A stretch of 64,000 bases of DNA, from contig NZ_BOOG01000018.1 of NCBI RefSeq assembly GCF_016863115.1, forward strand, positions 1 through 64,000, read 5' to 3'. The notes beneath the pieces were generated by a model that saw nothing but the letters and a program-made list of their open reading frames with translations, was not told the DNA's origin and did not search any database. This document shows, piece by piece, positions 22,725-43,892 of the stretch. The position numbers and the translations under genes were made by a program. Origin of the DNA: Sphaerimonospora thailandensis. GTDB taxonomy: Bacteria > Actinomycetota > Actinomycetes > Streptosporangiales > Streptosporangiaceae. The first letter of the stretch is position 1, and every line of letters starts with the position of its first letter.

Positions 22725-22896
22725 CCTGCCCGATGCCGGGCTCGCGTACGGAGAGTGGGACGATCTGTCTCGCATATTGAGAAGCGGGATCGGATCCCGG
22801 GAACGCCGGGGTACAGTGCTTACGGACGTTCTCCTATGCCATTCGACGACTCGGGACACGACCTGGGACAACTGAACGTCCACACAACTGAACATG

Positions 22897-23034
22897 CTCA
22901 TCCAGAGGGGTGGAGGGACCGGCCCTGCGAAGCCCCGGCAACCCTCCCGTGACCGAACTCGTGACCACGAGGCCCGGCCGGGACAGGGTGCCAATTCCGG
23001 GCTCGCGGTCAAGGTGGTCGCGAGCGAAGATGAG
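22897..23034 (+). ncRNA. SAM-I (S-box) riboswitch
   Basis: The core matches the SAM-I aptamer: GAGGGGTGGAGGGACCGGCC near 22904, then GAAGCCCCGGCAACC, and later GGGTGCCAATTCC. P1 can be formed by CTCATC (22897-22902) with GATGAG (23029-23034), and a P4 hairpin by GCTCGCG and CGCGAGC (23001-23025). The 3' strand of P1 runs straight into the GAGGGAAGGG ribosome-binding sequence of the downstream gene, and no terminator follows, so regulation is probably at translation initiation. It senses S-adenosylmethionine. Confidence 0.9.
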
Positions 23035-23050
23035 GGAAGGGCCTCGCTTC

Positions 23051-29886: not shown

Positions 29887-30007
29887 ACGGCCAGCGCCTC
29901 GATGCTCCATCCAGGGAGACCCACCCGGGGGAGAGTCCACCCTTGATCGTTTCTCTCGCCGATCCTCAGATCCCCATCCGCAGCCGCGCCGCCCTAAGGG
30001 GGCTTTC

Positions 30008-31123
30008 ATGCATGAGCACGCACTCGACTCGCCTGTGCCTGCGAAGAATCTCCGGCAACGGATCGGTGAGCTGTCCCTGCGCCTGCGGACGTCGGGGACG
30101 CGGGTGAAGCCGGCCGAGCCGCGGTTCGTCGACTTCGACACGATCCGGCTGCCGAACGGGGAGGTCGTCGACCGCAAGAAGGTAATCATCATGTCCGGCG
30201 GCTGCTCGGTGCCGACGTGCACGATGTGCCCCTTCACCAACGAGAACAACTACGGAATCGACGGCGGCACCTCACGCGAGAGCCTGCTGGATCAGGTACG
30301 GCGTACGCTCGCACGGATCGAGGGCGAGCCGTCGTACGACGTGCTCTCCCTCTATAACGACGGCAGCTTCTTCGCACCCCGAGAGATTCCCCGGGACGTC
30401 CAGGTGGAGATCGCCCGGCTGGTGGCGGCGGCCGGAGTGCGACACCTGGTGGTGGAGTCGCTGCCGCAGTTCGTCACCGAGTCGGTGCTGCGGCCGTTCG
30501 TTGAGGCGCTGGGCGGGGTGCGTCTGGAGATCGGGATCGGGCTGCAGTCCGCGGACGAGTTGGTGCGCGAAATGCTGGTGAACACACGAATCTCCCAGAT
30601 CTCCTTCGAGCGTGCGCTGAAGGTGATGGCAACCCTGGGAGCGGACCCGAAGATCTACCTGATGGTCAAGCCACCGTTTCTGACCGACGGTGAGGCGGTG
30701 ACTGATGTCGTGCAGTCGGTCGACTACTTGACCAAGCTCGGCGTGCGGGGGATGACGCTGTGCCCGACGCGGGTGTCGCGGAACACAGTGGCGTGGGAAC
30801 TGTGGCAGGCCGGGCAGTACACGCCGCCGAACCTGTGGACGGTGGTCGAGGCGATCCGCCGAGTGCATGAGCGGCTCGCGGTGCGGGTGGCGTGCGTGAA
30901 CCTGCGGGGGACGGACTTCGAGTCGGTGTTCCCCGACGCCTGCGAGGCGTGCGCGGACCGGGTTGTGGACTCGCTGATGCGGTTCGGGGAGACCGGCGAC
31001 GCCGATGACCTGCCCGAGGGCTGCTCCTGCCGACCGCCGCTTGAGGTGGTGGAGCTGGATCACGCGGTCATCACCGCCCGCGCGGCGCAGCAGCTGAACA
31101 TGCTGGAGCAGCGGCGTGTCTGA
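30008..31123 (+). CDS. Radical SAM enzyme (Elp3/RaSEA-like cysteine motif)
   Basis: 371-residue radical SAM protein, first gene of the heptose/carbamoyl biosynthetic operon. The cluster-binding motif is GGCSVPTCTMCPF, with C66, C71 and C74 (CX4CX2C rather than the common CX3CX2C), similar in style to the TIGR01210/RaSEA or Elp3-like group. Later strands carry YDVLSLYNDGSFF (SAM-site region) and RLEIGIGLQSADE. A C-terminal cysteine group (CEAC, then GCSC near residue 345) may bind a second cluster or a metal. ATG 30008 follows AAGGGGG. It overlaps the P450 gene by eight bases. Substrate unknown; likely acts on the aglycone or its precursor. Confidence 0.87.
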   Translation: MHEHALDSPVPAKNLRQRIGELSLRLRTSGTRVKPAEPRFVDFDTIRLPNGEVVDRKKVIIMSGGCSVPTCTMCPFTNENNYGIDGGTSRESLLDQVRRTLARIEGEPSYDVLSLYNDGSFFAPREIPRDVQVEIARLVAAAGVRHLVVESLPQFVTESVLRPFVEALGGVRLEIGIGLQSADELVREMLVNTRISQISFERALKVMATLGADPKIYLMVKPPFLTDGEAVTDVVQSVDYLTKLGVRGMTLCPTRVSRNTVAWELWQAGQYTPPNLWTVVEAIRRVHERLAVRVACVNLRGTDFESVFPDACEACADRVVDSLMRFGETGDADDLPEGCSCRPPLEVVELDHAVITARAAQQLNMLEQRRV

Positions 31124-32426
31124 GCGGACGCTGCTGCCCGCCCCCGGGGAGCTGCCCCCGCTGTACCCGTCGCGGGGATTCGATCAGGATCCGCTGGGCG
31201 TCATGGCCGAGGGACACCGCCAGTACGGGCCGGTGTTCCGGATGATGGTCGACGAGGCCGACACGGTGCTGGTAGGCACCTGGGCGGGGCTGGGCGAGCT
31301 GTTCGTCGCCGAGCGCGGCCGCCTGGAGGTGCTCAACACCGCGCTCGTCCACGACCTGTTCGGCCGGGCCCTGTTCAACCTCACCGGTGACGGCCACGCC
31401 GAGGCCCGGCGCCGGCTGCGTCCCGCGCTGTCTGCCAGGGCGCTTCCCAGATACGTTCCGGCCCTACTCGTTGTCACCGGCCCGGTGGCGGCCGGTTGGG
31501 CCAGGCAGGGCGTCGCGGATCTGTACCTGGCGGCGCGGGAGGTCACCCACGCGATGAGCGCCCGGGTCCTGCTGGGTATCCACCCCGCGGATACGGACAC
31601 GGGTCCGTTCGCCGCCGACTTCGGGCGGTTCATCACGGCCACTGGCGCGCCGCCGGGAGAGCGCCGGTTCTCGGACGCCCGGTACTGGGCCGGACGCGGT
31701 GCGCGGCGGCGGCTGCACACCCTGTTCACCCGCCGGGCGGTCGCCGCAAGGCTGGGCACGGATCCAGGCTCGGCGCTGCCCGGCTTGGTGGCCGCCTTCG
31801 AGGACGCGCCCAAGGGGGTGGGTCCCTTGGCCGATCATCTGCTCGCCCTGCTGATCGCGGCACGGGAGACAACCGCGAGCCTGATCACCTGGTGCCTGAT
31901 CGAGCTTGCCCGCCACCGTGAGTACGCCGGCCTCGCCGCGGCGGAGGCCCACGGCGCGCTCGCGGACCCCAGGCTGCTGGTGCGGCGGGATGCGCTGCCG
32001 ATCCTGCGGGCGGTGCTCGCCGAGACCCAGCGTCTGCACTCGCCGAACCTGCTGTCCGTACGGGAGACCGTCTGCCCGGTCAGTCTGGGCGGCTACCGCG
32101 TCCCGGCCGGGATGCGGGTGGCGTACTCCCCATCGGCCGGGCACCTCGACCCGCGAGTCTTCCCCCAGCCGCATGCGTTCCGGCCGGGCCGGTTCCTCGT
32201 CAGGCAGTCTCCTGGGGCCCGGCTGCGGGCGTTCGGCGGCGGCGCGCACGCCTGCCTGGGCCGGCCGCTCGCCGAACTCATGACCCTCACCGCGCTGTCC
32301 TGCGCCCTGCACCAGGGCCTGCCGCGGCTTCCCAGCGGCCCGCCGGACCACATCCGCTACCGGCCCGCGAAAGCCCCCGCCGCCCCGGTGCCGTTCGCCC
32401 TGGACCGTCAGGAGTCTGCCTCATGA
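31116..32426 (+). CDS. Cytochrome P450
   Basis: 436-residue soluble P450 monooxygenase. The heme-thiolate loop is FGGGAHACLG with C380; the K-helix ExxR is ETQR; the I-helix has AARETT, in which the usual AGxET glycine is replaced by alanine. No ferredoxin or ferredoxin reductase gene lies in the operon, so redox partners must come from elsewhere. GTG 31116 overlaps the radical SAM gene stop by eight bases and the stop overlaps the next start (ATGA). It presumably hydroxylates or oxidises an intermediate of the pathway. Confidence 0.93.
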   Translation: MSERTLLPAPGELPPLYPSRGFDQDPLGVMAEGHRQYGPVFRMMVDEADTVLVGTWAGLGELFVAERGRLEVLNTALVHDLFGRALFNLTGDGHAEARRRLRPALSARALPRYVPALLVVTGPVAAGWARQGVADLYLAAREVTHAMSARVLLGIHPADTDTGPFAADFGRFITATGAPPGERRFSDARYWAGRGARRRLHTLFTRRAVAARLGTDPGSALPGLVAAFEDAPKGVGPLADHLLALLIAARETTASLITWCLIELARHREYAGLAAAEAHGALADPRLLVRRDALPILRAVLAETQRLHSPNLLSVRETVCPVSLGGYRVPAGMRVAYSPSAGHLDPRVFPQPHAFRPGRFLVRQSPGARLRAFGGGAHACLGRPLAELMTLTALSCALHQGLPRLPSGPPDHIRYRPAKAPAAPVPFALDRQESAS

Positions 32427-33700
32427 CCCGCACCCCGCCCGACGCGCTCGCCGCCCTGCAGCAGGCGGCCGCCCACCATGAGGCCGGACGACAGCGGCTG
32501 TACCTGGTGCCGAGCGAGAACGGGTTGTCGCTGGCCGCCCGCGTGCCGCACCTGATGGAGGCCGCCATCCGCTACGCCTTCCCCGGCCCCGACGTTGGGA
32601 GCGAGAACTGGGCGTGGCCCGGTCGGCAGGACCTGGTCGCCGTCGAGCGGGCCGCAGCCGTGCGACTCGGCGCGCAGCTGGGCGCGCGGCATGTCAACCT
32701 CAAGGCGGTGTCCGGGGTGTCTGCGCTGACGGTGGCGCTCTCGGCGCTGGCCCGCCCGGGAGAGACTGCGTTCAACCTGGCGGAGCGGGATGGCGGGCAC
32801 GGCTCGACCCGCTTCATCGGCGCCCGCCTGGGCCTGCGGATGAAGGACCTGCCGGTCGACCCAGCCACCTGCACGCTCGACCTGGAGGCCCTCGCAGATC
32901 AGCTCGCTGGCGGGCCCCGGCCGGAGCTGGTGTACCTGGACGCGTTCATGTGCCTGTTCCCCGTGGACCTGGCCGGGCTACGGGAGGTTGTCGGCCCCCA
33001 CGCGGTGATCCACTACGACGCCTCCCACACCCTGGGCCTGATCGCCGGCGGCGCGTGGCAAAACCCCCTCGCCGAGGGCGCCGACAGCCTCGGCGGATCG
33101 ACCCACAAGACATACCCGGGCCCGCACAAGGGGGTTTTGGCCACCAACGACGCCGGTCTGGCTGCCCGGCTGGACGAGCACGCCTCGCACCTGGTCTCCC
33201 ACCACCATCCGGCCGACGTCGTCGCCCTGGCGGTGGCCGCCGTCGAGATGGACGCGCGTGGGGCCGTGTACGCGCAGGCCACCATCGCCAACGCACGCTG
33301 CCTGGGCACGGCTTTGGCCGAGCGCGGGTTCAGGATTTGCGGCGACAAGCGCGGGTTCACCGACTGCCATCAGCTATGGATCGACATCGCACCGCTGATG
33401 GACGCCGAGGAAGCCGCCCGGCGGCTGTTCGAGGCGGGCATCGTCGTCAACGCGATCCCCCTGCCGCACATCACCGCTCCCGTAGGGCTGCGCCTGGGCG
33501 TGCAGGAGGTGTCCTGGGCCGGGATGGGCGAGGCGGAGATGGAGGAGGTGGCCGAGATCGCCACCGCCGTGCTACGCGATGGCCATGACCCGGCCTCCGT
33601 CGGCGCGCGGACCCGGGCACTGGTGGAGGCATACCGGCCCGGCGAGGCCGGCGAGCAGGTCCTGCGCGCGGCCCTGGCGGCCATCGGAGGTGGGGCGTGA
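32423..33700 (+). CDS. SHMT-fold PLP enzyme (aldolase/transaldolase-like)
   Basis: 425-residue fold-type I PLP enzyme related to serine hydroxymethyltransferase. K229 in STHKTYPGPHKGVL is the PLP lysine, and DASHTLGLIAGG supplies the PLP-binding aspartate and histidine. The opening block LVPSENGLSLAAR resembles the IASENxxS of SHMT. It is diverged from housekeeping glyA. In natural-product clusters, SHMT-like enzymes often perform aldol or transaldol reactions that join glycine or threonine to an aldehyde, giving a beta-hydroxy-alpha-amino acid; that role is an inference. ATG overlaps the P450 stop, and GTGA couples it to the glycosyltransferase gene. Confidence 0.88.
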   Translation: MTRTPPDALAALQQAAAHHEAGRQRLYLVPSENGLSLAARVPHLMEAAIRYAFPGPDVGSENWAWPGRQDLVAVERAAAVRLGAQLGARHVNLKAVSGVSALTVALSALARPGETAFNLAERDGGHGSTRFIGARLGLRMKDLPVDPATCTLDLEALADQLAGGPRPELVYLDAFMCLFPVDLAGLREVVGPHAVIHYDASHTLGLIAGGAWQNPLAEGADSLGGSTHKTYPGPHKGVLATNDAGLAARLDEHASHLVSHHHPADVVALAVAAVEMDARGAVYAQATIANARCLGTALAERGFRICGDKRGFTDCHQLWIDIAPLMDAEEAARRLFEAGIVVNAIPLPHITAPVGLRLGVQEVSWAGMGEAEMEEVAEIATAVLRDGHDPASVGARTRALVEAYRPGEAGEQVLRAALAAIGGGA

Positions 33701-34872
33701 TCCCGGAGCAGATCCCGGCCAAGGGCGCCTTCCTCGGGCCAATGCACACGACGGAGACGTTCGAGATCCGCCCCGACTGCAGGCACTTCGTCGGTGGCAT
33801 GCCATGTAAGCACTGGCGACCGTGCCACGGGTGTCCGCATCACGACCCGGTGGACCACCGGGTGCTGATCGTGATGCTCGGCCTGCTGGGGGACGTGCTC
33901 ATCGCTTCTGCGCTGCCCGCGCGAATACGGGCCGACAGGCCAGGTGCGCACATCACCTGGCTGGTGGACGAGGCGTGCGCGCCGATCCTGCGGATGAACC
34001 CCTACGTCGATGAGGTCCTCGTCCACGACTGGGAGGCCGCGGCCCAACTGCCCTCCCGCCGCTTCGATGCCGTCTACTCCTTCGAGCGGACACCATCGGC
34101 CGCCGCACTGGTCGACCGCATTCCGGCCGGCCACAAAGCCGGGCTCGCATTCGGCGGCCCCCACCACAGCCTGTATCCGCTGGGAGAGGCCGCGCAGCAG
34201 TTCTTCCGGCAGAACACCTGGAACGACTACCGCACGATCGGCAATACCCAGACGTGGACCGAGCTGTACTTCGCCGTCGCCGGATATGAGTATGCGGGCG
34301 AGCCGTATGTGCTGAAGGTGCCCGAGTCCGCCTGGCGGCGCACGGCCGGGCTGCTCGGAGAGCGGACCAGACCCCGGGTGTGCTTGAACCTGGGCGGGTC
34401 GCTGCCGACAAAGCTGTGGCCGAAGCGGCATTGGGCCGAGCTCGCCGACGCCCTGCTCGGCCACGGCGCGCAACTGGCCGTCCTCGGCGGCCCCACCGAC
34501 CAGGAGGTGTGCGAGGCCCTCGTACGGCACCTGCGCATGCGGGGCGCCGACGAGACGCGGGTGGCGTACGCCCCGCTCAACCTGGAGGAGGCCTCCGCGC
34601 TGCCGGCGCTGTGCGATGCGGTGGTGACCGGCGACTCCTTCGGCTTCCACCTCGCGCTCGCCCACGCCAAGCCGACTGTGGTACTGCTCGGGCCGAGCAA
34701 CGGCGCCGAGGTCATCCCCAAGCATGCCACCCACGTGACCGCGCTGCGTTCGACGCTGCCGTGCGCGCCGTGCGCCCACCAGGTCGCCTGCGGCGGAACC
34801 GGCGGCTGCATGGACATCATCGACCCCGCCGCCGTCCTCAAAGCGACCCTCGACCACCTGGCCTCCACCTGA
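33697..34872 (+). CDS. GT9 (heptosyltransferase-like) glycosyltransferase
   Basis: 391-residue GT-B glycosyltransferase of family 9, which in Gram-negatives transfers heptose from ADP-heptose. Family features are LIVMLGLLGDVLIASALPAR near residue 58, NLGGSLPTKLWPKRHWAEL and the donor-site block CDAVVTGDSFGFHLALAHA. Ahead of the fold there is a 50-residue segment with C28, C37, C43 and C46 and several histidines, a probable zinc or cluster site, and a second cysteine group near the C terminus (LPCAPCAHQVACGG). It should use the sugar nucleotide made by the downstream heptose genes. GTG 33697 overlaps the preceding stop. Confidence 0.9.
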   Translation: MIPEQIPAKGAFLGPMHTTETFEIRPDCRHFVGGMPCKHWRPCHGCPHHDPVDHRVLIVMLGLLGDVLIASALPARIRADRPGAHITWLVDEACAPILRMNPYVDEVLVHDWEAAAQLPSRRFDAVYSFERTPSAAALVDRIPAGHKAGLAFGGPHHSLYPLGEAAQQFFRQNTWNDYRTIGNTQTWTELYFAVAGYEYAGEPYVLKVPESAWRRTAGLLGERTRPRVCLNLGGSLPTKLWPKRHWAELADALLGHGAQLAVLGGPTDQEVCEALVRHLRMRGADETRVAYAPLNLEEASALPALCDAVVTGDSFGFHLALAHAKPTVVLLGPSNGAEVIPKHATHVTALRSTLPCAPCAHQVACGGTGGCMDIIDPAAVLKATLDHLAST

Positions 34873-34888
34873 CCACCGACTGACCCCG

Positions 34889-34908
34889 CCACCGCCCCGG
34901 GGCGGTGG
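34889..34908. repeat. 20-bp GC palindrome within the biosynthetic operon
   Basis: CCACCGCCCC followed by GGGGCGGTGG, a perfect palindrome that can fold into an 8-bp stem with a four-base loop in RNA. It lies 16 bases after the GT9 gene and 24 bases before the carbamoyltransferase start. Confidence 0.7.
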
Positions 34909-34932
34909 GCCACGGCGAAAAGGAGCATCACG

Positions 34933-36663
34933 TTGGGAATCGTGCTGGGGCTGGGCGGCCCGTACTACCACGACGCCTCCGCCTGCCTGGTCATCGACGG
35001 CCGCATCATTGCCTTCGCCGAGGAGGAGCGGTTCTCCCGCCGAAAGCACCACAAGGACTCCCGTTCCTGCGCGATGGCCGCGGCGTACTGCCTGGCGGAG
35101 GCCGGCATCACCCTGGCCGAGGTGGATGAGATCGCCATCGCGTTCAACCCTGCCTGGCCCGAGCCGAGCCAGACGTGCACGGACGCCGAATTGATCGCCG
35201 AACTTCTCGACTCCGCCCAGTTCGGCCACCACCGGCCCAGGCAGGTCACTGTGATCGAGCACCACCTCGCGCACGCCGCGTCCGCGTTCCACCCCTCCGG
35301 ATTCGACCAGGCGGCCGTGCTGGTGGTCGACGGCTCCGGCGACGGCGTCTCCGCCACCCTCGCCCACGGCACCGCCAGCGGCCTGAAGGTCCTGCGGCAG
35401 TGGCCGTTCTCCCAGAGCTTGGGGTGGTTCTACGAGACCGTCGCCGAACACCTCGGGCTCGGAGACTGGACCAGCTCCGGCAAACTCATGGGGCTGGCCG
35501 GCTACGGCAACCCCAACCGCTATGAGCTGGACTTCCTCACTCCCCAGCCCGGCGGCTACCACCTGGACCTGTCGCGCTGGGGCATCCGCCCCGACGAGCA
35601 GGACGACGACCAGTACACGGACCTGCGCTACTACCAGCGCCTCAAGCGCGCCTACGCCGCCGCCTACACCGACCTCGGCATCCCGCCCCACCGCCGCGTC
35701 CGCACCTACGCCCCTGTCACCGGCCGGTCCCTGCCCGAACCGGGCTTCCGGCCCGAGCATGCCGACCTCGCCGCGGCCGCGCAGCACCTGCTGGAGCAGT
35801 GCCTGATCGAACTGGCCCGCGAAGCCCTCACCGCCACCGGCGCCACACGGCTGTGCGTAGTCGGCGGCGTCGGACTGAACTGCTCCGCCAACGGCCGCCT
35901 CGCCGCCCTGCGCGGTGTCGAGGACATGTTCGTCCAGCCGGCCGCCGGGGACGCCGGGTGCGCCATCGGCGCGGCGCTCGAAGTCGCCCTGCGCCGCGGC
36001 GATCTGACACTACCCGGCCCCGCGATGACCACCGCCGCCCTCGGCCCTTCCTTCGACGCCACCGCCATCCGCCAGGTCCTGACCGACTACGGCCTGGCCT
36101 TCCGCGATCACGGCGATGACCTGCCCGCCGTCATCGCCGGACACCTGGCGTCCGGCCGCACCGTCGGCTGGTTCCAGGGCCGTATGGAAGCAGGCCCCCG
36201 CGCGCTCGGGGGACGCAGCATCCTCGCCGACGCCCACCACACACGCGTCCGCGACCACATCAACAACAATGTCAAACACCGGGAGCCATGGCGGCCGCTG
36301 GCCCCCGTCCTGCTGGAGGAGGCCGCACCCGAGCTTCTCGGCACCAGCACCCCACACCCATTCATGATCGTCGCCCGTCAGGCCACGCAGGCCGCGCGGA
36401 AGCTGATCCCGGCCGTCGTGCATGCCGACGGCACGCTGCGCCCGCAGACCGTCGCCCGCGACGACGCCGACCCGCACGCGCGGCTGCTCGCCTCGTTCGC
36501 CGAGCAGACCGGCCGTCCGCCCGCACTGCTGAACACCAGCTTCAACCACGAGGCCGAGCCGATCGTGTGCACGCCGCGTGACGCGGTCGCCACCTTCGCC
36601 GCGAGCCCCCTGGACATGCTCGCCATCGGGCCGTTCCTCCTCCACAAGGGCCGCCCGATCTGA
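34933..36663 (+). CDS. Sugar O-carbamoyltransferase (NodU/CmcH/TobZ family)
   Basis: 576-residue carbamoyltransferase that forms a carbamoyl-adenylate from carbamoyl phosphate and ATP and transfers the carbamoyl group to a hydroxyl, here probably on the sugar. The N-terminal Kae1-like domain has GLGGPYYHDASACLV, the metal-binding histidines in EHHLAHAAS (about residue 110), and VVDGSGDG; the C-terminal domain has GRMEAGPRALGGRS (about residue 415) and LLNTSFN. The start is TTG 34933 with AAGGAG eight bases upstream; the protein begins at the first strand with no room for an earlier start. Members of this family decorate bleomycin, tobramycin and cephamycin. Confidence 0.94.
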   Translation: MGIVLGLGGPYYHDASACLVIDGRIIAFAEEERFSRRKHHKDSRSCAMAAAYCLAEAGITLAEVDEIAIAFNPAWPEPSQTCTDAELIAELLDSAQFGHHRPRQVTVIEHHLAHAASAFHPSGFDQAAVLVVDGSGDGVSATLAHGTASGLKVLRQWPFSQSLGWFYETVAEHLGLGDWTSSGKLMGLAGYGNPNRYELDFLTPQPGGYHLDLSRWGIRPDEQDDDQYTDLRYYQRLKRAYAAAYTDLGIPPHRRVRTYAPVTGRSLPEPGFRPEHADLAAAAQHLLEQCLIELAREALTATGATRLCVVGGVGLNCSANGRLAALRGVEDMFVQPAAGDAGCAIGAALEVALRRGDLTLPGPAMTTAALGPSFDATAIRQVLTDYGLAFRDHGDDLPAVIAGHLASGRTVGWFQGRMEAGPRALGGRSILADAHHTRVRDHINNNVKHREPWRPLAPVLLEEAAPELLGTSTPHPFMIVARQATQAARKLIPAVVHADGTLRPQTVARDDADPHARLLASFAEQTGRPPALLNTSFNHEAEPIVCTPRDAVATFAASPLDMLAIGPFLLHKGRPI

Positions 36664-36749
36664 CTGTCCGGACCCTTCCGCTCACGGCCGGTAGGTTGAG
36701 CCCGGCCATTAGCCACTTATCCGCATCCAGCGAACAGGACCGATTCGCG

Positions 36750-38141
36750 ATGACCGCTACTGCTCCCGACCTGCCTGTCGCCGACCGGCTGCGCGCCCAG
36801 CATGGCGCGGCGCTCACCCTGGGCGAGGACTGCGACCTGCCCGACGACCTCGTGGTCGAGATCGACCCAGGCGCCCACCTGACGATCGGTGACCGGGTCT
36901 CCATCCGCCGTGGGTCCACCATCCAGGTCCACCGCGGCGCCACCGTCGCCATCGGCCACGACGTCGCCATCGGAGAGCACACCTTCATCTCCGCCATGGC
37001 CGGCATCCGCCTCGGCGACGGCGCGGCACTGTCGAACATGGTCGACTTGCACGACCACAACCACCGCGAGCGCTCCGCGGTGAACGTGCCGACCGGGCAG
37101 CTCGTGCCGTGGGCGTCCGGGTTTGAGGCCGCCCCGATCATCATCGAGCCCGGCGCGGTCCTGTCGAACAAGGTCACCGTCACCGGTGGGGTACGGATCG
37201 GAGCCAACTCTCTCGTTGGGGCGAACGCGGTCGTCTCCCGCAGCATCGCCCCCGACACCGTCGCCGCAGGCGTCCCCGCCACCGCACGCCGTCATTTCGC
37301 CGGCGCTCCCGTGCCCGCGCGCGAGGACCGGCGCACCCTGACCGTGGGCTTCTTCGGCACGAGCATCATGGAACACCTCGAAGCGTTCAACACGCAGATG
37401 ACCACCCAGGCGAACCTGCCCGAGGTCGGCTCCAAGGTCACCGTCGAAGGCTGGCACCAGCGCGGCTGGGTGCACCGGCTCGCGCTGTCGCTGCGCGCCG
37501 CCCGCCCGTACGTGACCTTCGACGTCCGCAACCACGGCGAAGGCGGCGCCACAAGCCGGGACGTCGCCACCCTCGTCGAAGCCGACCGGGCGACCGACGG
37601 CGTGGACTACGACCTGGTATTCCTCGGCTGCGGCATCAATGACGTCTGGCGACGGTTCCAGGGCCGTCTGTCCGAGGCGGTCGACATCGGCGAGTACACC
37701 CGGCACCTGAACACGATGCTGGAGCAGCTGACCGGCTGCTCCCGCCAGGTCGTCGTCATCAGCGAGACCCCGTTCGGCCCCATCGAGGCACCCGAGACCG
37801 TCGCGGAGATGAACGCCGAACTCGCCCGCTACAACGAGGCCGCCCGCCAGGCTGCCGCCACACACGGCACGCTGTTCCTGGACGTGTGGACCCCGTTCAC
37901 CGCCGCCGCCCGGCACCTGCCCGCCGACGACGAGAAGGACGGCGATGAGGCGGGCGGGGTGTGGAGCGACGGCGTCCACCTCACAGAACTCGGCGACACC
38001 GTGCTGCTCCAGCAGGTCGAACGGCTCCTGGCCGAGCACCGGATCGTCGACAAGCTCCTGGACTACCCGCTCCTAGAGCGCGATCTCGCCCTGCGGGCGT
38101 ACGGCCCGCTGTTCGCCCGGTTCCGACCCGCAAACGCCTGA
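36750..38141 (+). CDS. Hexapeptide acyltransferase-SGNH hydrolase fusion
   Basis: 463 residues in two domains. Residues about 35-190 form a left-handed beta-helix of hexapeptide repeats (VEIDPGAHLTIGDRVSIRRG, later VTVTGGVRIGANSLVGANAV) like O-acetyltransferases of the LbetaH type. From about residue 198 an SGNH/GDSL hydrolase follows: GFFGTSIMEH carries the block I serine, GCGIND the block III asparagine, and DGVHLTELG the aspartate and histidine. Such a fusion could transfer and remove, or exchange, acyl groups on the sugar or aglycone. ATG 36750 has a modest ribosome-binding sequence (CAGGA). It sits between the carbamoyltransferase and heptose genes. Confidence 0.88.
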   Translation: MTATAPDLPVADRLRAQHGAALTLGEDCDLPDDLVVEIDPGAHLTIGDRVSIRRGSTIQVHRGATVAIGHDVAIGEHTFISAMAGIRLGDGAALSNMVDLHDHNHRERSAVNVPTGQLVPWASGFEAAPIIIEPGAVLSNKVTVTGGVRIGANSLVGANAVVSRSIAPDTVAAGVPATARRHFAGAPVPAREDRRTLTVGFFGTSIMEHLEAFNTQMTTQANLPEVGSKVTVEGWHQRGWVHRLALSLRAARPYVTFDVRNHGEGGATSRDVATLVEADRATDGVDYDLVFLGCGINDVWRRFQGRLSEAVDIGEYTRHLNTMLEQLTGCSRQVVVISETPFGPIEAPETVAEMNAELARYNEAARQAAATHGTLFLDVWTPFTAAARHLPADDEKDGDEAGGVWSDGVHLTELGDTVLLQQVERLLAEHRIVDKLLDYPLLERDLALRAYGPLFARFRPANA

Positions 38142-38147
38142 GCGCCC

Positions 38148-38180
38148 GGGGTGCCGGCGGTGGCCGGCCACCGGCACCCC
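38148..38180 (+). repeat. GC-rich hairpin between operon genes
   Basis: GGGGTGCCGG (38148-38157) pairs perfectly with CCGGCACCCC (38171-38180); the inner bases contain a second palindrome, TGGCCGGCCA. No U-tract follows. It lies just after the acyltransferase gene and 40 bases before the heptose enzyme start. Confidence 0.7.
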
Positions 38181-38219
38181 AGCCACCACCCCGCCGACCC
38201 CACCCCCCAGGGAGTTATC

Positions 38220-40184
38220 GTGACCATGCCGGGCCGTGAACACATACACGCGCTTGCCGCTGCGCTACCCCGCCTCGACATCAGCCGTCTGCAGGCATGG
38301 GGCCAGACCCTCGCCGACCGTCTACGGGCGGGCGGACGGTTGCTGGTCGCGGGCAACGGCGGCTCAGCGGCCGAGGCCCAGCACCTGACCTCCGAGCTCG
38401 TGGGCCGCTTCCACGCCGAGCGGGCACCGCTGTCAGCCATCGCGCTGCACGCGGACTCCTCCTCGGTAACCGCCATCGCCAACGACTACGGAGCCACGGA
38501 GGTCTTCGCCCGGCAGGTCCGCGCCCATAGCCGGCCCGGCGACGTCCTGCTGCTGCTCTCGGCCTCCGGCCGTAGCCCCAACATGCTCACCGCCGCTCGC
38601 ACCGGCCGGGAACTCAACCTGGAGGTCTGGGCGCTGACCGGCCCGGCCCCGAACCCGCTCGCCAAGGCCTGCGGCCAGGCGGTGTGTGTAGACGCCGAGC
38701 AGGTCGCCACCGTCCAGGAATGCCACCTGGTCGCAGTGCACGTGCTGTGCGCGGCCGTCGACGCCCACCTCACCACCCCGCACGCCGGCGCCGAGGAGGG
38801 GCCGCACGGCGCCCGGCGGCTGGTGGTGGTCGGGGACGTGGTGCTCGACCGCGACATCACCGGCACCGCCGACCGGCTCTCGCCGGAGGCCCCGGTGCCG
38901 ATTGTCAGCGACGCACAGACCCTCGACCGGCCGGGCGGAGCCGGCCTGGCCGCCATAATGGCCGCGCGGGAGCCGAACTGGCTCATCTCTCTCGTGTGCG
39001 GCATCGGCCAAGACGCCCCCGGCGCCCGCGTGCGCGAACTGCTTCACCGAGCCGGCGTCGAGGTCATCGACATCGCTGCCAGCGGCACCACCCCGGTCAA
39101 GACCCGCGTCCGCACCATCGACCGCACGCTGCTCCGCTTCGACACCCCGCATGCCCCGCTGCGCCTCGGCCCGCTCCCCGACAAGGTCCACGCCCGGCTG
39201 GAGGAGGCCGCAGCCGTGGTGGTGTGCGACTACGGGCGCGGAATCACCACCCACGACACGCTGCGGCAGGCGTTGACGGATACGGCCCGCCGCCGCCCGC
39301 TGGTGTGGGATCCGCATCCGAGCGGGGCCGTGCCGGTACCCGGCACGGCCCTAGCCGTACCGAACACCGACGAAGCCCTGGCCCTGGCCGGCACCGCCGG
39401 GCCACGGGACCTCGGCGGTGACGCCGCACGCGCGGCACGGCTGCTGACCGCGTGGCCGGTCAAGCAGGTCGCCGTCACCCGCGGCCCCGATGGCGCGGTC
39501 CTGGTCGCCGACACTGACGGCCACCCGCTGGTCGTCCCCGCCCGGCCAACCGCCGGGGACACCTGCGGGGCCGGTGACCAGCTGGCGGTCACCGCGGCGG
39601 TGATGCTCGGCGCCGGACGGCTGCCGTCCCACGCCGTGGCCGCCGCCGTCGAGGCCGCGACCGCCTACGTCCACGCCGGTGGGCCCGCCGGTCTTTTCAC
39701 CCGGCGGCTTCCCGCGGGCAGCCCCAGCCCGCTACAGATGGCAGCGCGGGTACGGGCGCGCGGCGGGAAAGTCGTAGGCGCGGGCGGCTGCTTCGACCTG
39801 CTGCACGCCGGGCACCTCTCCCTCCTGGCCGCGGCCCGCCGCCTCGGGGATGTCCTGGTGGTGTGCATCAACAGCGACGACTCCGTCCGCCGGCTCAAGG
39901 GAGACGACCGGCCAGTCGTCAGCGAACGCGAACGCGCCGCACTGCTGGAAGCACTGGACTGCGTGGACGGCGTGCTCGTCTTCGGTGAGGACACCCCCGA
40001 GCAGGTGCTATCCGAACTCCGGCCGGATGTCTGGGTCAAGGGCGGCGACTACGCAGGCCAGCGGATCCCAGAGGCCGACCTGGTGGAGAGCTGGGGCGGC
40101 GAGGTCGTCGTCGTGCCGTACGTGAACGGTCACTCCACCACCTCTCGCATCAACCGGCTCACCCAGCAGGCAGGTGCACGATGA
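38220..40184 (+). CDS. Trifunctional heptose enzyme: GmhA isomerase, HldE kinase and nucleotidyltransferase
   Basis: 654-residue three-domain fusion. Residues about 1-190 are a SIS-fold sedoheptulose-7-phosphate isomerase (AGNGGSAAEAQHLTSELVGR, as in GmhA). About 198-500 is a PfkB-type kinase like the HldE N domain (LVVVGDVVLDRDITG, RLSPEAPVP, and the catalytic GAGD near residue 447). About 515-654 is the nucleotidyltransferase (GGCFDLLHAGHLSLL with the HxGH motif). Together these would make heptose 7-phosphate, the 1,7-bisphosphate and, after a phosphatase step, ADP-heptose. No GmhB phosphatase is encoded nearby. Start GTG 38220 follows AGGGAG; ATG 38226 is an alternative. Its stop overlaps the epimerase start. 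Confidence 0.92.
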   Translation: MTMPGREHIHALAAALPRLDISRLQAWGQTLADRLRAGGRLLVAGNGGSAAEAQHLTSELVGRFHAERAPLSAIALHADSSSVTAIANDYGATEVFARQVRAHSRPGDVLLLLSASGRSPNMLTAARTGRELNLEVWALTGPAPNPLAKACGQAVCVDAEQVATVQECHLVAVHVLCAAVDAHLTTPHAGAEEGPHGARRLVVVGDVVLDRDITGTADRLSPEAPVPIVSDAQTLDRPGGAGLAAIMAAREPNWLISLVCGIGQDAPGARVRELLHRAGVEVIDIAASGTTPVKTRVRTIDRTLLRFDTPHAPLRLGPLPDKVHARLEEAAAVVVCDYGRGITTHDTLRQALTDTARRRPLVWDPHPSGAVPVPGTALAVPNTDEALALAGTAGPRDLGGDAARAARLLTAWPVKQVAVTRGPDGAVLVADTDGHPLVVPARPTAGDTCGAGDQLAVTAAVMLGAGRLPSHAVAAAVEAATAYVHAGGPAGLFTRRLPAGSPSPLQMAARVRARGGKVVGAGGCFDLLHAGHLSLLAAARRLGDVLVVCINSDDSVRRLKGDDRPVVSERERAALLEALDCVDGVLVFGEDTPEQVLSELRPDVWVKGGDYAGQRIPEADLVESWGGEVVVVPYVNGHSTTSRINRLTQQAGAR

Positions 40185-41155
40185 GCCCGGGCGGCGACGT
40201 GCTGGTGACCGGCGGGGCAGGCTTCATCGGCCGGCACACGACCCTGGCCTTCCACCGCGCCGGATACCGGGTCACCGCCGTCGACCTGCGCCCGGCTCCC
40301 GAACACCTCGCCCATATGGGCCGCTGGCAGCGCGGTGACTTCACCGCCCCGGCCCTCCTCGCCGACATCGCCGCTGGCCGCTACGAGACCGTCGTCCACC
40401 AAGCCGGCATCAGCGACACCCGCGTCCCCGCCGGGTCCGAACTGACGGAAACCAACACCCTCGGCCCACTCCGACTGGCCGACGCCTGCCACACGGGCGG
40501 CGCTCGCCTTATCTACGCCTCCTCGCACTCCGTCTACGGCACCCTCCACCAGCGCACGCCGATCGCCGAGGACGCCGACACCAACCACACCCGCTGCTCT
40601 GGCCCACTCAATCCGTACGCGGCATCCAAGCTCGCCCTCGACTGTCAGATGCGCGCCCGCCACGGCACCGGCCTGCACTGGGTGGGGCTGCGCTACACCA
40701 ACGTCTTCGGCCCCGACGAGGCCGACAAGGGCCCGATGGCCTCGATCCTGTCCCAGTTGCTGCGCCAAGCTGCCCACACGGGCCACATCCGCGTCTTCGA
40801 TGATTCTCTGGCCGCCGCCCGCGACTACATCCCGGTCGAGATCGTCACGGCCACGATCGTCCAACTCGCCGAGCAGGTCGTACCTGCCGCGGTCTATAAC
40901 CTTGGTGCCGGCTTCGCCGTGTCCTTCGCAACCCTGACACAGTGGTGCGCCCGCCTGCACCGCGAGACGAGCGGCCGGCCCCTACTCGTTGAGCTCGTGC
41001 CCAACCCGCTTGCAGCCGCCTACCAATACTTCACCTGCGCGGACATGACCGCACTCGACAAGACCCTGCCCGACCGGCCGACCGTCCCACCCTTATCCGT
41101 CGAAACCCGCGCCGCAGAACTGTTCAAGATCTTCCATAGCCGCGTAACCGTATGA
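40181..41155 (+). CDS. HldD-like sugar-nucleotide epimerase
   Basis: 324-residue extended SDR. The NAD(P) motif is TGGAGFIG, the catalytic YxxxK is YAASK, and VFGPDEADKG and YQYFTCADMTALD resemble blocks of ADP-glyceromanno-heptose 6-epimerase HldD. In the HldD pathway it inverts C6 of ADP-heptose to give the L,D form, but related enzymes epimerise other positions (the bleomycin sugar pathway also uses such an epimerase), so the exact reaction is uncertain. The ATG overlaps the preceding stop (ATGA). Last gene of the operon. Confidence 0.9.
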   Translation: MSPGGDVLVTGGAGFIGRHTTLAFHRAGYRVTAVDLRPAPEHLAHMGRWQRGDFTAPALLADIAAGRYETVVHQAGISDTRVPAGSELTETNTLGPLRLADACHTGGARLIYASSHSVYGTLHQRTPIAEDADTNHTRCSGPLNPYAASKLALDCQMRARHGTGLHWVGLRYTNVFGPDEADKGPMASILSQLLRQAAHTGHIRVFDDSLAAARDYIPVEIVTATIVQLAEQVVPAAVYNLGAGFAVSFATLTQWCARLHRETSGRPLLVELVPNPLAAAYQYFTCADMTALDKTLPDRPTVPPLSVETRAAELFKIFHSRVTV

Positions 41156-41727: not shown

Positions 41728-43056
41728 ATGGGATTCGACATGACCGACCAGAACACCACTGCCGGATGGCGTCAAGTCAACGTCGCCTGCGACGACTGGC
41801 GGTCCGCTGAACGATGGGCATCACCCAGCATGATGATCAAAGCCGAAGGCGCCGGCGCAATCACTGGTAACGCCGACCGGCTCCGCGACGACCTGGCCGA
41901 CTACATCAAGAGCTGGGGCATGTTCCGCACGCCGCAGGTCGAAGCCGCGTTCCGTACCGTCCCTCGGCACCTGTTCCTGCCGGGGGTGGCTCTCGACGTC
42001 GCCTACGGACGTAAACCGGTCGTGACCCGGCGCGCCGCCGACGGCACCTCTGTTTCCTCGGCCTCCAGCCCCAAGCTGGTCGCCGCCATGCTCGAACAGC
42101 TCGCCGTCGAGCCCGGCCAGCGGGTCCTGGAGATCGGCGCGGCCACCGGCATCAACGCCGCCCTCCTCGCCGAACTCGTCGGCCCCACCGGGGGTGTCGT
42201 CACCATCGAACTCGACGACGACCTCGCCGCGGGTGCCGCCGAAAGCCTCGAAGCGGCCGGCTATCCTCAGGTCGAGGTCGTCTGTGGCGACGGCGCACTC
42301 GGCGTCCCCAACCGCGCCCCCTACGACCGGATCATCGTCACCGCTGAAGCGTGGGACCTCGTCCCAGCTTGGTGGGACCAGCTAACCGTCGGCGGCCGAC
42401 TCGTCGTACCGCTACGCCTGCACGGCAGCGGACTGACCCGTGCCATCGCCTTCGACCTCCACCAACCCGACCACATGATCAGCACCTCGGCCGTCGTCTG
42501 CGGCTTCGTCCCGATGCGCGGCCTTGCCGAACATGCCGAACAACACGTCCGCCTGGCCGACGATGTCGTTCTCAAAGTCGATGTCGACGACCTGCCCGAC
42601 GACACCGCACTCGCCCGGACCCTCACCCATCCCGGTCAGGAACACTGGCCCGGTATCCACGTCCGGCACGACGAGCCCGCCGAGCACCTTGACCTGTGGC
42701 TCGTCACCACCGCCGCCCACCGGTTCGGGCGCCTCTCCGTCGGGCAACAGGCTCGCACGACGGGCCTGGCCAACCCGGCAATGCGCTGGGGCGGCGCGGC
42801 CCTCTACGATGGCGGGACCCTCACCTACATCGTCACCTGCGACATCGACGATGACACCCTCGAACTCGGGATCGTCGCGCACGGCCCTGACAGCGTGAAG
42901 CTGGCCGGCCACACCACCGATCTACTGCATCGATGGGACCGGGAACGCCCGAGCCGGCCTGTCATCACCGCATGCCGGACGGACACCAATCCCGGTGCCA
43001 ACACCGCCGAGACACGCATCGTCCGGCCACACACGGCGGTCACGGTCACGTGGTAA
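41728..43056 (+). CDS. PCMT-like methyltransferase of the FxLD type
   Basis: 442-residue SAM-dependent methyltransferase with a protein-L-isoaspartate methyltransferase core: AFRTVPRHLFLPGVALDVAY, SSASSPKLVAAMLEQL, and the SAM site VLEIGAATGINAALLAELVG. The C-terminal half (ending near RPVITACRTDTN and RPHTAVTV) matches the extension seen in methyltransferases of FxLD lanthipeptide systems as I know them. The first 20 residues (GWRQVNVACDDW) look like the start of the thiopeptide-type domain fused to some relatives. No precursor peptide or lanthionine synthetase lies nearby, so it is an orphan. ATG 41728 or 41740 could be the start; neither has a strong ribosome-binding sequence. Confidence 0.85.
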   Translation: MGFDMTDQNTTAGWRQVNVACDDWRSAERWASPSMMIKAEGAGAITGNADRLRDDLADYIKSWGMFRTPQVEAAFRTVPRHLFLPGVALDVAYGRKPVVTRRAADGTSVSSASSPKLVAAMLEQLAVEPGQRVLEIGAATGINAALLAELVGPTGGVVTIELDDDLAAGAAESLEAAGYPQVEVVCGDGALGVPNRAPYDRIIVTAEAWDLVPAWWDQLTVGGRLVVPLRLHGSGLTRAIAFDLHQPDHMISTSAVVCGFVPMRGLAEHAEQHVRLADDVVLKVDVDDLPDDTALARTLTHPGQEHWPGIHVRHDEPAEHLDLWLVTTAAHRFGRLSVGQQARTTGLANPAMRWGGAALYDGGTLTYIVTCDIDDDTLELGIVAHGPDSVKLAGHTTDLLHRWDRERPSRPVITACRTDTNPGANTAETRIVRPHTAVTVTW

Positions 43057-43121: not shown

Positions 43122-43158
43122 GTGACGCTCGCCAGATTTGGTGGCTAGAATTTCTGAC
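43122..43158 (+). promoter_or_regulatory. Candidate promoter for leaderless antitoxin mRNA
   Basis: TGACGC at 43123-43128 and TAGAAT at 43146-43151, 17 bases apart, resemble -35 and -10 elements. The ATG of the antitoxin gene begins eight bases after the -10 element and no ribosome-binding sequence is visible, so the transcript may be leaderless. Confidence 0.5.
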
Positions 43159-43443
43159 ATGGACACCAGGCCGCGACGCACGTACTGTGTGCGCATAAGC
43201 GACAAAGGGCGCCTGACCGTGCCCGCCGACGTCCGGCAGGCCGCTGGAATCCCCGACGGGGCGGAGCTGGTCGTCACCGCGAGTGGAGACGGAGAGGTGA
43301 CGCTGACCACCAGGGATGCGGTGATCCGACGCATCCGTGATGCGGTGCCCCCCGCTCCAGCCGACGGCTGGCCGCTGGCCGAGTGGGACCGTGAGGACGC
43401 GGCCGATGACGAACAGGACGACGCGCGAGACGGCGCGGCATGA
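43159..43443 (+). CDS. AbrB/SpoVT-type antitoxin (VapB-like)
   Basis: 94 residues. The N-terminal swapped-hairpin domain has the family signature ISDKGRLTVPADVRQAAGIP followed by DGAELVVTASGDGEVTL. The C-terminal half, acidic (WDREDAADDEQDDARDGAA), is the probable toxin-binding tail. It overlaps a PIN-domain toxin gene by four bases (ATGA), the normal antitoxin-first arrangement, and by analogy it binds and represses its own promoter and neutralises the toxin. ATG 43159 is used; an in-frame GTG at 43138 lies upstream of the probable promoter. Confidence 0.9.
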   Translation: MDTRPRRTYCVRISDKGRLTVPADVRQAAGIPDGAELVVTASGDGEVTLTTRDAVIRRIRDAVPPAPADGWPLAEWDREDAADDEQDDARDGAA

Positions 43444-43892
43444 GCCATGTACTCGACGCCGGCGTGGTCCTCGCATTCGTCCTCGGCGAGAGCGGAGCCG
43501 ATCAGGTCATGGCAGAGCTGGACGGTTCCGTACTGCCGACAGTCGCCTTGACCGAGGTGTGCCGCCGCACCGAACAGATCGGTTACCGCCGCACCACCGC
43601 CCAGCTCACCGCCGATCTGGCGGCCCTCGGCGTGGTCATCGACGAGACTCTGACATCAACGGACGCCCAGCGAGCTGCCGCTCTGCGGCAGTCCTCCTAT
43701 CGGCTGCGCTCGCAGTGGACGGATCAGGACCGTAACGACGCGGGCGGCATGAGTACGCTGTCCACCGCAGACGCCCAGGTGATCGCTGTTGCGGAACGCC
43801 ATGGCCTGCCTGTCATGACCACCGACCGCGCGTGGCTGGTTGTCGAGCGCCTGACGGGCGGCTTCCGCGTCAAGGTCGTCTGCATCCGCTGA
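43440..43892 (+). CDS. PIN-domain toxin (VapC-like)
   Basis: 150-residue PIN-domain ribonuclease. Candidate metal ligands are D6 (VLDAGVVLAF), E39 (ALTEVCRR), an aspartate in STADAQVIAVA and one in MTTDRAW. An insertion of about 20 residues (SYRLRSQWTDQDRNDAGG) before the third acidic residue is longer than in common VapC toxins. VapC toxins cleave tRNA or rRNA when freed from antitoxin. It lies in the small accessory island between the biosynthetic operon and the conserved helD gene and is convergent with helD, nine bases away. Confidence 0.87.
   Translation: MSHVLDAGVVLAFVLGESGADQVMAELDGSVLPTVALTEVCRRTEQIGYRRTTAQLTADLAALGVVIDETLTSTDAQRAAALRQSSYRLRSQWTDQDRNDAGGMSTLSTADAQVIAVAERHGLPVMTTDRAWLVVERLTGGFRVKVVCIR

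Follow-up and report, generated by a model that had tools for sequence, protein, structure and literature searches.

What might be made by eight adjoining genes that bring together a radical S-adenosylmethionine (SAM) protein, a cytochrome P450, a pyridoxal 5'-phosphate (PLP) enzyme and a supply of activated heptose, and by what route did they reach their present hosts? These questions are raised by positions 30008-41155 (+ strand) of a 64,000-nucleotide stretch of Sphaerimonospora thailandensis DNA, here called the window, which hold an eight-gene operon whose open reading frames (ORFs) have their key motifs intact (genes 1 to 8; Table 1). The original prediction was of an operon for a carbamoylated, acylated, probably heptosylated metabolite formed without a polyketide synthase (PKS) or non-ribosomal peptide synthetase (NRPS). 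In the literature searched no description of this gene set was found; the parts are of known kinds, and their combination and spread as a unit were likewise not found there. The chances appear evenly balanced that this is a self-contained, horizontally moved operon for a small heptosylated amino-acid-like metabolite. On the best reading, the product would be an O-heptosylated, carbamoylated and possibly acylated unusual amino acid.

The eight genes recur as a unit. With the PLP protein as query, 18 loci were found in genome_contigs, and seven of them hold all eight genes; in the other 11 the fetched stretch holds a match related to serine hydroxymethyltransferase (SHMT) alone. Among plasmid records, 123 match the PLP protein, and the two that do so at 80% identity (pFRL5 and pFRL3) carry all eight genes. 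One more cassette, L037, came to light through its family 9 glycosyltransferase (GT9) when genomes sampled from the S. filamentosus genus were searched. Locus L010 is identical in DNA to L009 and was counted once, which leaves nine distinct cassettes besides the window's; two of these, L008 and L037, are close relatives with flanking genes in common. The hosts are Streptomyces, Kitasatospora and Catenulispora, in addition to the two plasmids. Start/stop overlaps of 8, 4, 4 and 4 bases had been described in the window and were reproduced from the ORF coordinates. Gene order and all four overlaps, the last of them between genes 7 and 8, are identical in the nine distinct other cassettes, so the overlaps are not a product of chance. 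At the remaining junctions the genes are 60, 32 and 9 bases apart, the last two distances depending on the starts chosen; judging by conservation, genes 6 and 7 probably begin a few codons further on, near 36750 and 38220-38226. Identity to the window proteins across the nine loci is 81–87% for GT9, 79–85% for the radical SAM protein, 75–84% for the PLP enzyme and 59–72% for the P450, the most divergent cassette gene. The motifs checked are kept in all ten cassette sequences, some with conservative changes. Co-conservation of the eight genes was thus borne out in nine of nine other cassettes with mostly different flanks; independent occurrence, the contrary outcome, was not seen for the gene set, although the SGNH domain of gene 6 does exist alone without the cassette.

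The cassette stands alone rather than forming the sugar portion of a larger cluster, because the complete sequences of pFRL3 and pFRL5 (409 and 437 kb) hold no condensation and no ketosynthase match at E <= 1e-10. The window genome has one condensation match (contig C2) and two ketosynthase matches (C38 and C2), with none on the window contig, C18. In the other chromosomes each of the matches listed is either on a different contig from the cassette or over 0.5 Mb away from it. Linked domains of the bleomycin type were found neither on the cassette plasmids nor on the window contig. The two plasmids without such matches and the co-conserved genes support a small-molecule operon without PKS or NRPS. 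The opposite outcome, membership in an NRPS or PKS cluster of known product, was not seen, with the chromosomes judged among the matches listed and MIBiG outside the comparison; the cassette as the sugar part of such a cluster was rejected.

The cassette has probably been moved horizontally. At E <= 1e-60, one of 341 genomes of the window's family holds a GT9 relative, and at E <= 1e-40 one of 394 in a class sample, in each case the window's own genome (the two samples overlap). Of 392 genomes sampled within the genus of G697 (S. filamentosus), two hold one at E <= 1e-40, and one of them is G697. Searched against 72,556 plasmid records at E <= 1e-5, the radical SAM protein matches two, the cassette plasmids pFRL5 and pFRL3, and at E <= 1e-10 it matches one of 197 genomes in a class sample, the genome at the sample's centre. 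It has no relative in viral_contigs, and viral carriage was rejected. As controls, ArgS is 50–54% identical in six of seven cassette genomes (the seventh gave weaker partial matches only), and the XPB helicase is 77–83% identical in seven of seven, similar to the cassette itself. This similarity control is mixed; therefore transfer is argued mainly from patchiness and plasmid carriage. At L051 10001-10405, a 135-residue piece that the annotation does not identify as such shares 78.5% identity with the N-terminal portion of gene 6 and is probably a trace of a lost cassette.

The flanks were compared over about 7.5 kb upstream and 0.7–2.5 kb downstream for L004-L009, and over longer stretches for L022 and L023; no flanking gene is common to all of these and the window. 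Two upstream regulator genes are common to L006, L007, L022 and L023, and L006 and L022 have an additional upstream region in common. A HAD gene lies downstream of most cassettes. In each of the four loci the two regulator-like genes are adjacent, and the L007 pair is mutually related (26%). By eye, a GGTTCACCACGGTGAACC-type palindrome lies between the regulators and the operon in the four loci that have these regulators. A leader segment around GACGGCTGCGCCGCGC, directly before the radical SAM gene, is conserved in eight loci (L004-L008, L022, L023 and L037), where complementary CCGGTC/GACCGG-type stretches are visible by eye ahead of the ribosome site. The window has the leader in shortened form at 29888-30010, and L009 has none by eye. 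No Rfam family matched it in the four loci scanned (L004, L007, L008 and L022).

On the heptose side, GT9 matches PF01075 (Glyco_transf_9) with 86 bits over a cut-off of 22, and its motifs LGLLGD and TGDS(F/Y)GFHLA, which we take to be donor-site motifs, are kept in the ten sequences. Its N-terminal Cys/His-rich segment, CRHF-X4-PC-X5-C-X2-C, has invariant Cys residues in the same ten, and its AlphaFold model is poor (mean predicted local distance difference test, pLDDT, 58.8). Gene 7 exceeds the cut-off of the adenylyltransferase family TIGR02199 (188 bits over 181.5) and falls below those for gmhA (144.7 against 209.45) and the kinase (127.9 against 345); the kinase motif GAGD is kept in ten sequences. 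The best family of gene 8 is TIGR02197 (HldD), at 174.6 bits below a cut-off of 274.6, with the YAASK and DKGPMAS motifs kept with minor changes. The GmhA, HldE kinase, HldE adenylyltransferase and HldD domains of ADP-heptose biosynthesis are all present, with intact motifs, and of these the adenylyltransferase alone exceeds its cut-off. Heptose supply and a GT9 enzyme, as originally proposed, are backed by this evidence; the count of three sugar-supply genes has to be corrected to two, the GmhA-kinase-adenylyltransferase fusion and the HldD-like epimerase.

A ninth gene, encoding a GmhB-type HAD phosphatase, follows the epimerase and is intact in seven of the nine other cassettes (L004, L006, L007, L008, L009, L022 and L037), truncated in L005, and absent in L023 and in the window locus. 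The L004 protein scores 143.1 bits with TIGR00213, just below the cut-off of 149.6. Elsewhere in the window genome the sole GmhB-like match is a distant HAD protein (62.4 bits). Because its GmhB gene is absent and this match is weak, the window copy may need a host phosphatase for the GmhB step. Near the GmhB position of the other cassettes, 180 bases past the epimerase, the window has an IS5 remnant of 72 codons with a weak Pfam match to DDE_Tnp_1_2 (E 0.021). In Embleya sp. NBC_00888 (L054 11962-15035), a tridomain heptose enzyme shares 57% identity with gene 7 and an epimerase 60% with gene 8; an AMP-binding gene is nearby, and the other cassette genes are absent save for a short SGNH-like match.

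The PLP enzyme had been named from its SHMT fold. The fold stands, and the better name is threonine-transaldolase-like, by scores, motif and tree. The protein scores 226 bits with TIGR04506 (F_threo_transal); this is under the cut-off of 650, and it is therefore called transaldolase-like and not fluorothreonine transaldolase. With the SHMT family it scores 191.7 bits against a cut-off of 335. The Tyr motif (YYGG) of the folate-side loop in SHMTs is replaced by WAWPG in ten of ten cassette sequences. An ordinary SHMT was rejected by this score, this motif and the tree. Among solved structures, two archaeal-type SHMT entries rank first (184.8 bits), followed by the threonine aldolase entry 7k34 (157.2 bits), which we take to be ObaG/ObiH. 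Equivalents of ObiH H131, D204, K234, R366 and Y55 are kept (alignment, numbering offset 12), with H126, D199, K229 and R357 as the aligned catalytic His, Asp, Lys and Arg; catalytic roles of the ObiH residues are described in the literature (PMC10495429). These residues are not specific to transaldolases, because they are common to SHMTs.

The tree was built from 23 rows, with five of the ten cassette sequences, two long rows shortened beforehand, and no ObaG, LipK or archaeal SHMT rows. In it the cassette enzymes group with proteins from biosynthetic loci L043-L045 (97/94), apart from the SHMTs, and less firmly with L046 (87/95), which we take to be OrfA of a clavam cluster; these partners come from NRPS and clavam-type clusters. 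The row presumed to be fluorothreonine transaldolase (FTase; L042, without annotation) lies outside the cassette branch and is unresolved, as is L011. The fold, the catalytic residues and the lack of YYGG are as in the L-threonine transaldolases ObaG and FTase; the cassette enzyme is 35.8% identical to FTase, and its uncharacterised relatives reach 40.8%.

Gene 1 has NCBIfam RaSEA (TIGR01210) as its best family, with 174.8 bits over about 290 residues, short of the cut-off of 212.15 that defines the equivalog. Pfam confirmed the domain names originally given to the other genes, and the radical SAM match fell under the Pfam cut-off (24.9 against 29.5 bits). The CX4CX2C cluster motif is at residues 66-74. 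Five further Cys at 296, 312, 315, 339 and 341, in the C-terminal third, are invariant in the ten sequences and might bind a second cluster. In all, 240 of 372 alignment columns are invariant in these ten. The AlphaFold model (pLDDT 67.5) has Elp3 as its best Protein Data Bank match by Foldseek, with template modelling (TM) scores of at most 0.49 by query length among the 50 matches listed, which is consistent with the general radical SAM fold only. RaSEA is described as converting preQ0-lysine in tRNA to archaeosine (PMC11298593). It is archaeal, whereas the cassette protein is bacterial and sits in a biosynthetic operon, and no ArcS-like gene is among the eight cassette genes (the rest of the genome was not searched for ArcS). 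The P450 has its heme-Cys motif, FGGGAHACLG, intact.

From these families a pathway can be proposed. The gene 7 fusion and the HldD-like epimerase would convert sedoheptulose 7-phosphate to ADP-heptose, the 7-phosphate being removed by the cassette's GmhB-type phosphatase where present and by a host HAD phosphatase in the window genome. The radical SAM protein and the P450 would build or oxidize a carbon skeleton ending in an aldehyde, to which the PLP enzyme would add a glycyl unit, taken from threonine or else glycine, so that a beta-hydroxy-alpha-amino acid results. GT9 would place heptose on a hydroxyl group, the NodU-type enzyme would O-carbamoylate, and the hexapeptide domain would acylate; by the SGNH domain the acyl group might be removed or moved. 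That carbamoylation, acylation and heptosylation fall on one product, like all the reactions and their order, is what the families would suggest.

Several observations weigh against this pathway and the unit proposed around it. No peptide, nucleobase or scaffold precursor gene points to the aglycone, and over the distances compared the flanks of L004-L009 have neither a transporter gene nor a resistance gene in common. The radical SAM protein, the PLP enzyme and gene 8 all score below the cut-offs of their best families, and FTase lies outside the cassette branch of the tree. The window copy, in which GmhB is absent and the leader segment largely so, may for that reason be partly decayed. The mixed similarity control for transfer also counts on this side, as does the presence of a carbamoyltransferase and heptose genes, with a P450 not far off, in the probable glycan loci described below.

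The cassette might instead make a nucleoside-type antibiotic, in which GT9 puts heptose on a nucleobase and the radical SAM and PLP enzymes remodel a base or sugar aldehyde. In septacidin the heptose is reportedly attached to the nucleobase. ADP-heptose intermediates are used by septacidin and spicamycin (PMC10948575), the substrate of RaSEA is a lysine-modified preQ0 base in tRNA (PMC11298593), and LipK-type transaldolases use uridine 5'-aldehyde (PMC10495429). However, no base-forming or preQ0 gene is in the cassette and none is common to all the flanks compared, and the GT9 sequence is uninformative on the acceptor. A nucleoside product is considered unlikely.

A surface glycan, glycolipid or wall decoration in place of a diffusible metabolite is a still less probable outcome, kept alive because two carbamoyl-heptose loci with several glycosyltransferases exist. 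These Streptomyces plasmid loci (L053 8449-20879 and L055 4830-12018) hold a carbamoyltransferase, GmhA, HldE and an epimerase, with a GT9 in L053 and a P450 some kilobases off in both, and are probably carbamoylated heptose glycan loci, to judge from their gene content. Unlike the cassette, with its single glycosyltransferase and its three strictly linked oxidative or carbon-bond enzymes, they have seven and two glycosyltransferases, and the stretch shown contains no gene annotated as radical SAM or SHMT-like. Matched proteins of the two kinds of loci are 24–69% identical.

It is quite improbable that the operon serves maturation of a ribosomal peptide or protein, with GT9 heptosylating Ser/Thr or a cross-linked peptide and the radical SAM protein and P450 modifying the peptide. 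The best NCBIfam match of the P450 is ApyO, a P450 of ribosomally synthesized and post-translationally modified peptides (128.8 bits against a cut-off of 525), and autotransporter heptosyltransferases modify proteins (PMC10948575 and PMC11461863). Yet no flanking ORF of at least 60 amino acids is common to the nine sources (the window, L004-L009, L022 and L023, without L037), and none of the cassette proteins has a recognition domain by Pfam. That the genes are the sugar or tailoring part of a bleomycin-like NRPS/PKS cluster elsewhere in the genome, an analogy drawn in the original prediction and suggested by the many matches in seven of eight genomes tested (at least 12 condensation and at least 19 ketosynthase matches in all but the window's own), is scarcely credible given the absence of both domains from the complete plasmids and the distances of the chromosomal matches listed.

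The amino-acid reading is also set against described heptose systems. Tridomain NDP-heptose synthetases are reported to be widespread in actinobacteria; gene 7 likewise fuses isomerase, kinase and nucleotidyltransferase, and is here one of eight genes in an operon of fixed order. The septacidin, spicamycin and hygromycin B systems of Streptomyces are not known to have a set of RaSEA-like, transaldolase-like, carbamoyltransferase and hexapeptide-SGNH genes. As is proposed for the cassette, the heptose of these compounds comes from sedoheptulose 7-phosphate (PMC10948575 and, by its title, Tang 2018).

The non-cassette carbamoyltransferase that ranks best in the plasmid records is 41.5% identical over 99% of the length and is carried by an S. 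globosus plasmid. Its neighbours are VioC, capreomycidine synthase and lysine 2,3-aminomutase, from which we take the cluster to be streptothricin-type; it differs from the cassette in its NRPS-type genes and other sugar genes, and is a different operon. Thirteen records match the carbamoyltransferase at 60–80% identity, and the three of them examined span only 9% of the protein.

In gene 6 the motifs LHDHNHR, GTS, GINDV and SDGVHL are invariant in ten sequences. Stand-alone hydrolases related to its SGNH half occur in four plasmid records, three listed in Table 1 and the fourth in NBC_01454 (52.3% identity), and may possibly have a resistance or editing function. Within 12–14 kb of the SGNH gene, L049, L050 and L052 have no other cassette gene, and in two of the three a phosphotransferase gene adjoins it. 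The phosphotransferases of L008, L022, L050 and L052 gave no mutual match at E <= 1e-4; L008 and L037 alone match.

Table 1. Features of the operon locus in the window, and stand-alone relatives of the SGNH half of gene 6.
Feature	Location	Strand	Replicon	Basis
Gene 1, radical SAM protein, RaSEA-like	30008..31123	+	Window	TIGR01210 174.8 bits
Gene 2, cytochrome P450	31116..32426	+	Window	PF00067 E 2.8e-39
Gene 3, PLP enzyme, SHMT fold, threonine-transaldolase-like	32423..33700	+	Window	TIGR04506 226 bits, motif, tree
Gene 4, GT9 glycosyltransferase, ADP-heptosyltransferase-like	33697..34872	+	Window	PF01075 E 3.4e-24
Gene 5, NodU-type O-carbamoyltransferase	34933..36663	+	Window	PF16861 E 1e-59, PF02543 E 1.8e-45
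Gene 6, hexapeptide-repeat acyltransferase-SGNH hydrolase fusion	36696..38141	+	Window	PF00132, PF13472
Gene 7, three-domain heptose enzyme: GmhA-like isomerase, HldE kinase, HldE adenylyltransferase	38151..40184	+	Window	Pfam SIS_2, PfkB, CTP_transf_like
Gene 8, HldD-like ADP-heptose epimerase (short-chain dehydrogenase/reductase, SDR)	40181..41155	+	Window	TIGR02197 174.6 bits
IS5-family transposase remnant, C-terminal ~70 residues	41336..41551	+	Window	77.8% identity to annotated IS5 family transposase
Stand-alone SGNH hydrolase	L049 13932-14774		Streptomyces plasmid	70.4% identity
Stand-alone SGNH hydrolase	L050 13971-14771		Streptomyces plasmid	72.9% identity
Stand-alone SGNH hydrolase	L052 11929-12735		Streptomyces plasmid	52.3% identity

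Within the operon, scans for tRNAs and Rfam families found neither. Anti-phage defence was rejected, PADLOC giving no match at E <= 1e-5 for the six proteins submitted (genes 1, 3, 5, 6, 7 and 8). Elsewhere in the window, a methyltransferase of an FxLD lanthipeptide-type system is encoded at 41872-43056 (+; TIGR04364, 458.9 bits over a cut-off of 320); no FxLD precursor was recognised by eye among the ORFs near it, and it has no match in the flanking DNA of eight other cassettes with which it was compared. A SAM riboswitch (RF00162, 74.2 bits) lies at 22895-23036 (+), upstream of a PLP-dependent PALP-family gene, and a MazE-like antitoxin/PIN-domain toxin pair with a 4-base overlap is found at 43138-43443 and 43440-43892 (+).

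More tentatively, and with more doubt than confidence, the cassettes may define a new family of plasmid-spread products, in which a heptosylated, carbamoylated beta-hydroxy amino acid would be formed, without an assembly line, by a P450, a transaldolase and a radical SAM protein from a bacterial branch of the archaeal RaSEA family. The cassette is a minimal, repeatedly transferred unit with its key motifs intact, which makes expression of the entire cassette in a laboratory host feasible. Should the proposal be true, three things would be new: a radical SAM reaction, catalysed by a bacterial relative of an archaeal tRNA enzyme, a substrate for transaldolases, and a heptosylated scaffold.

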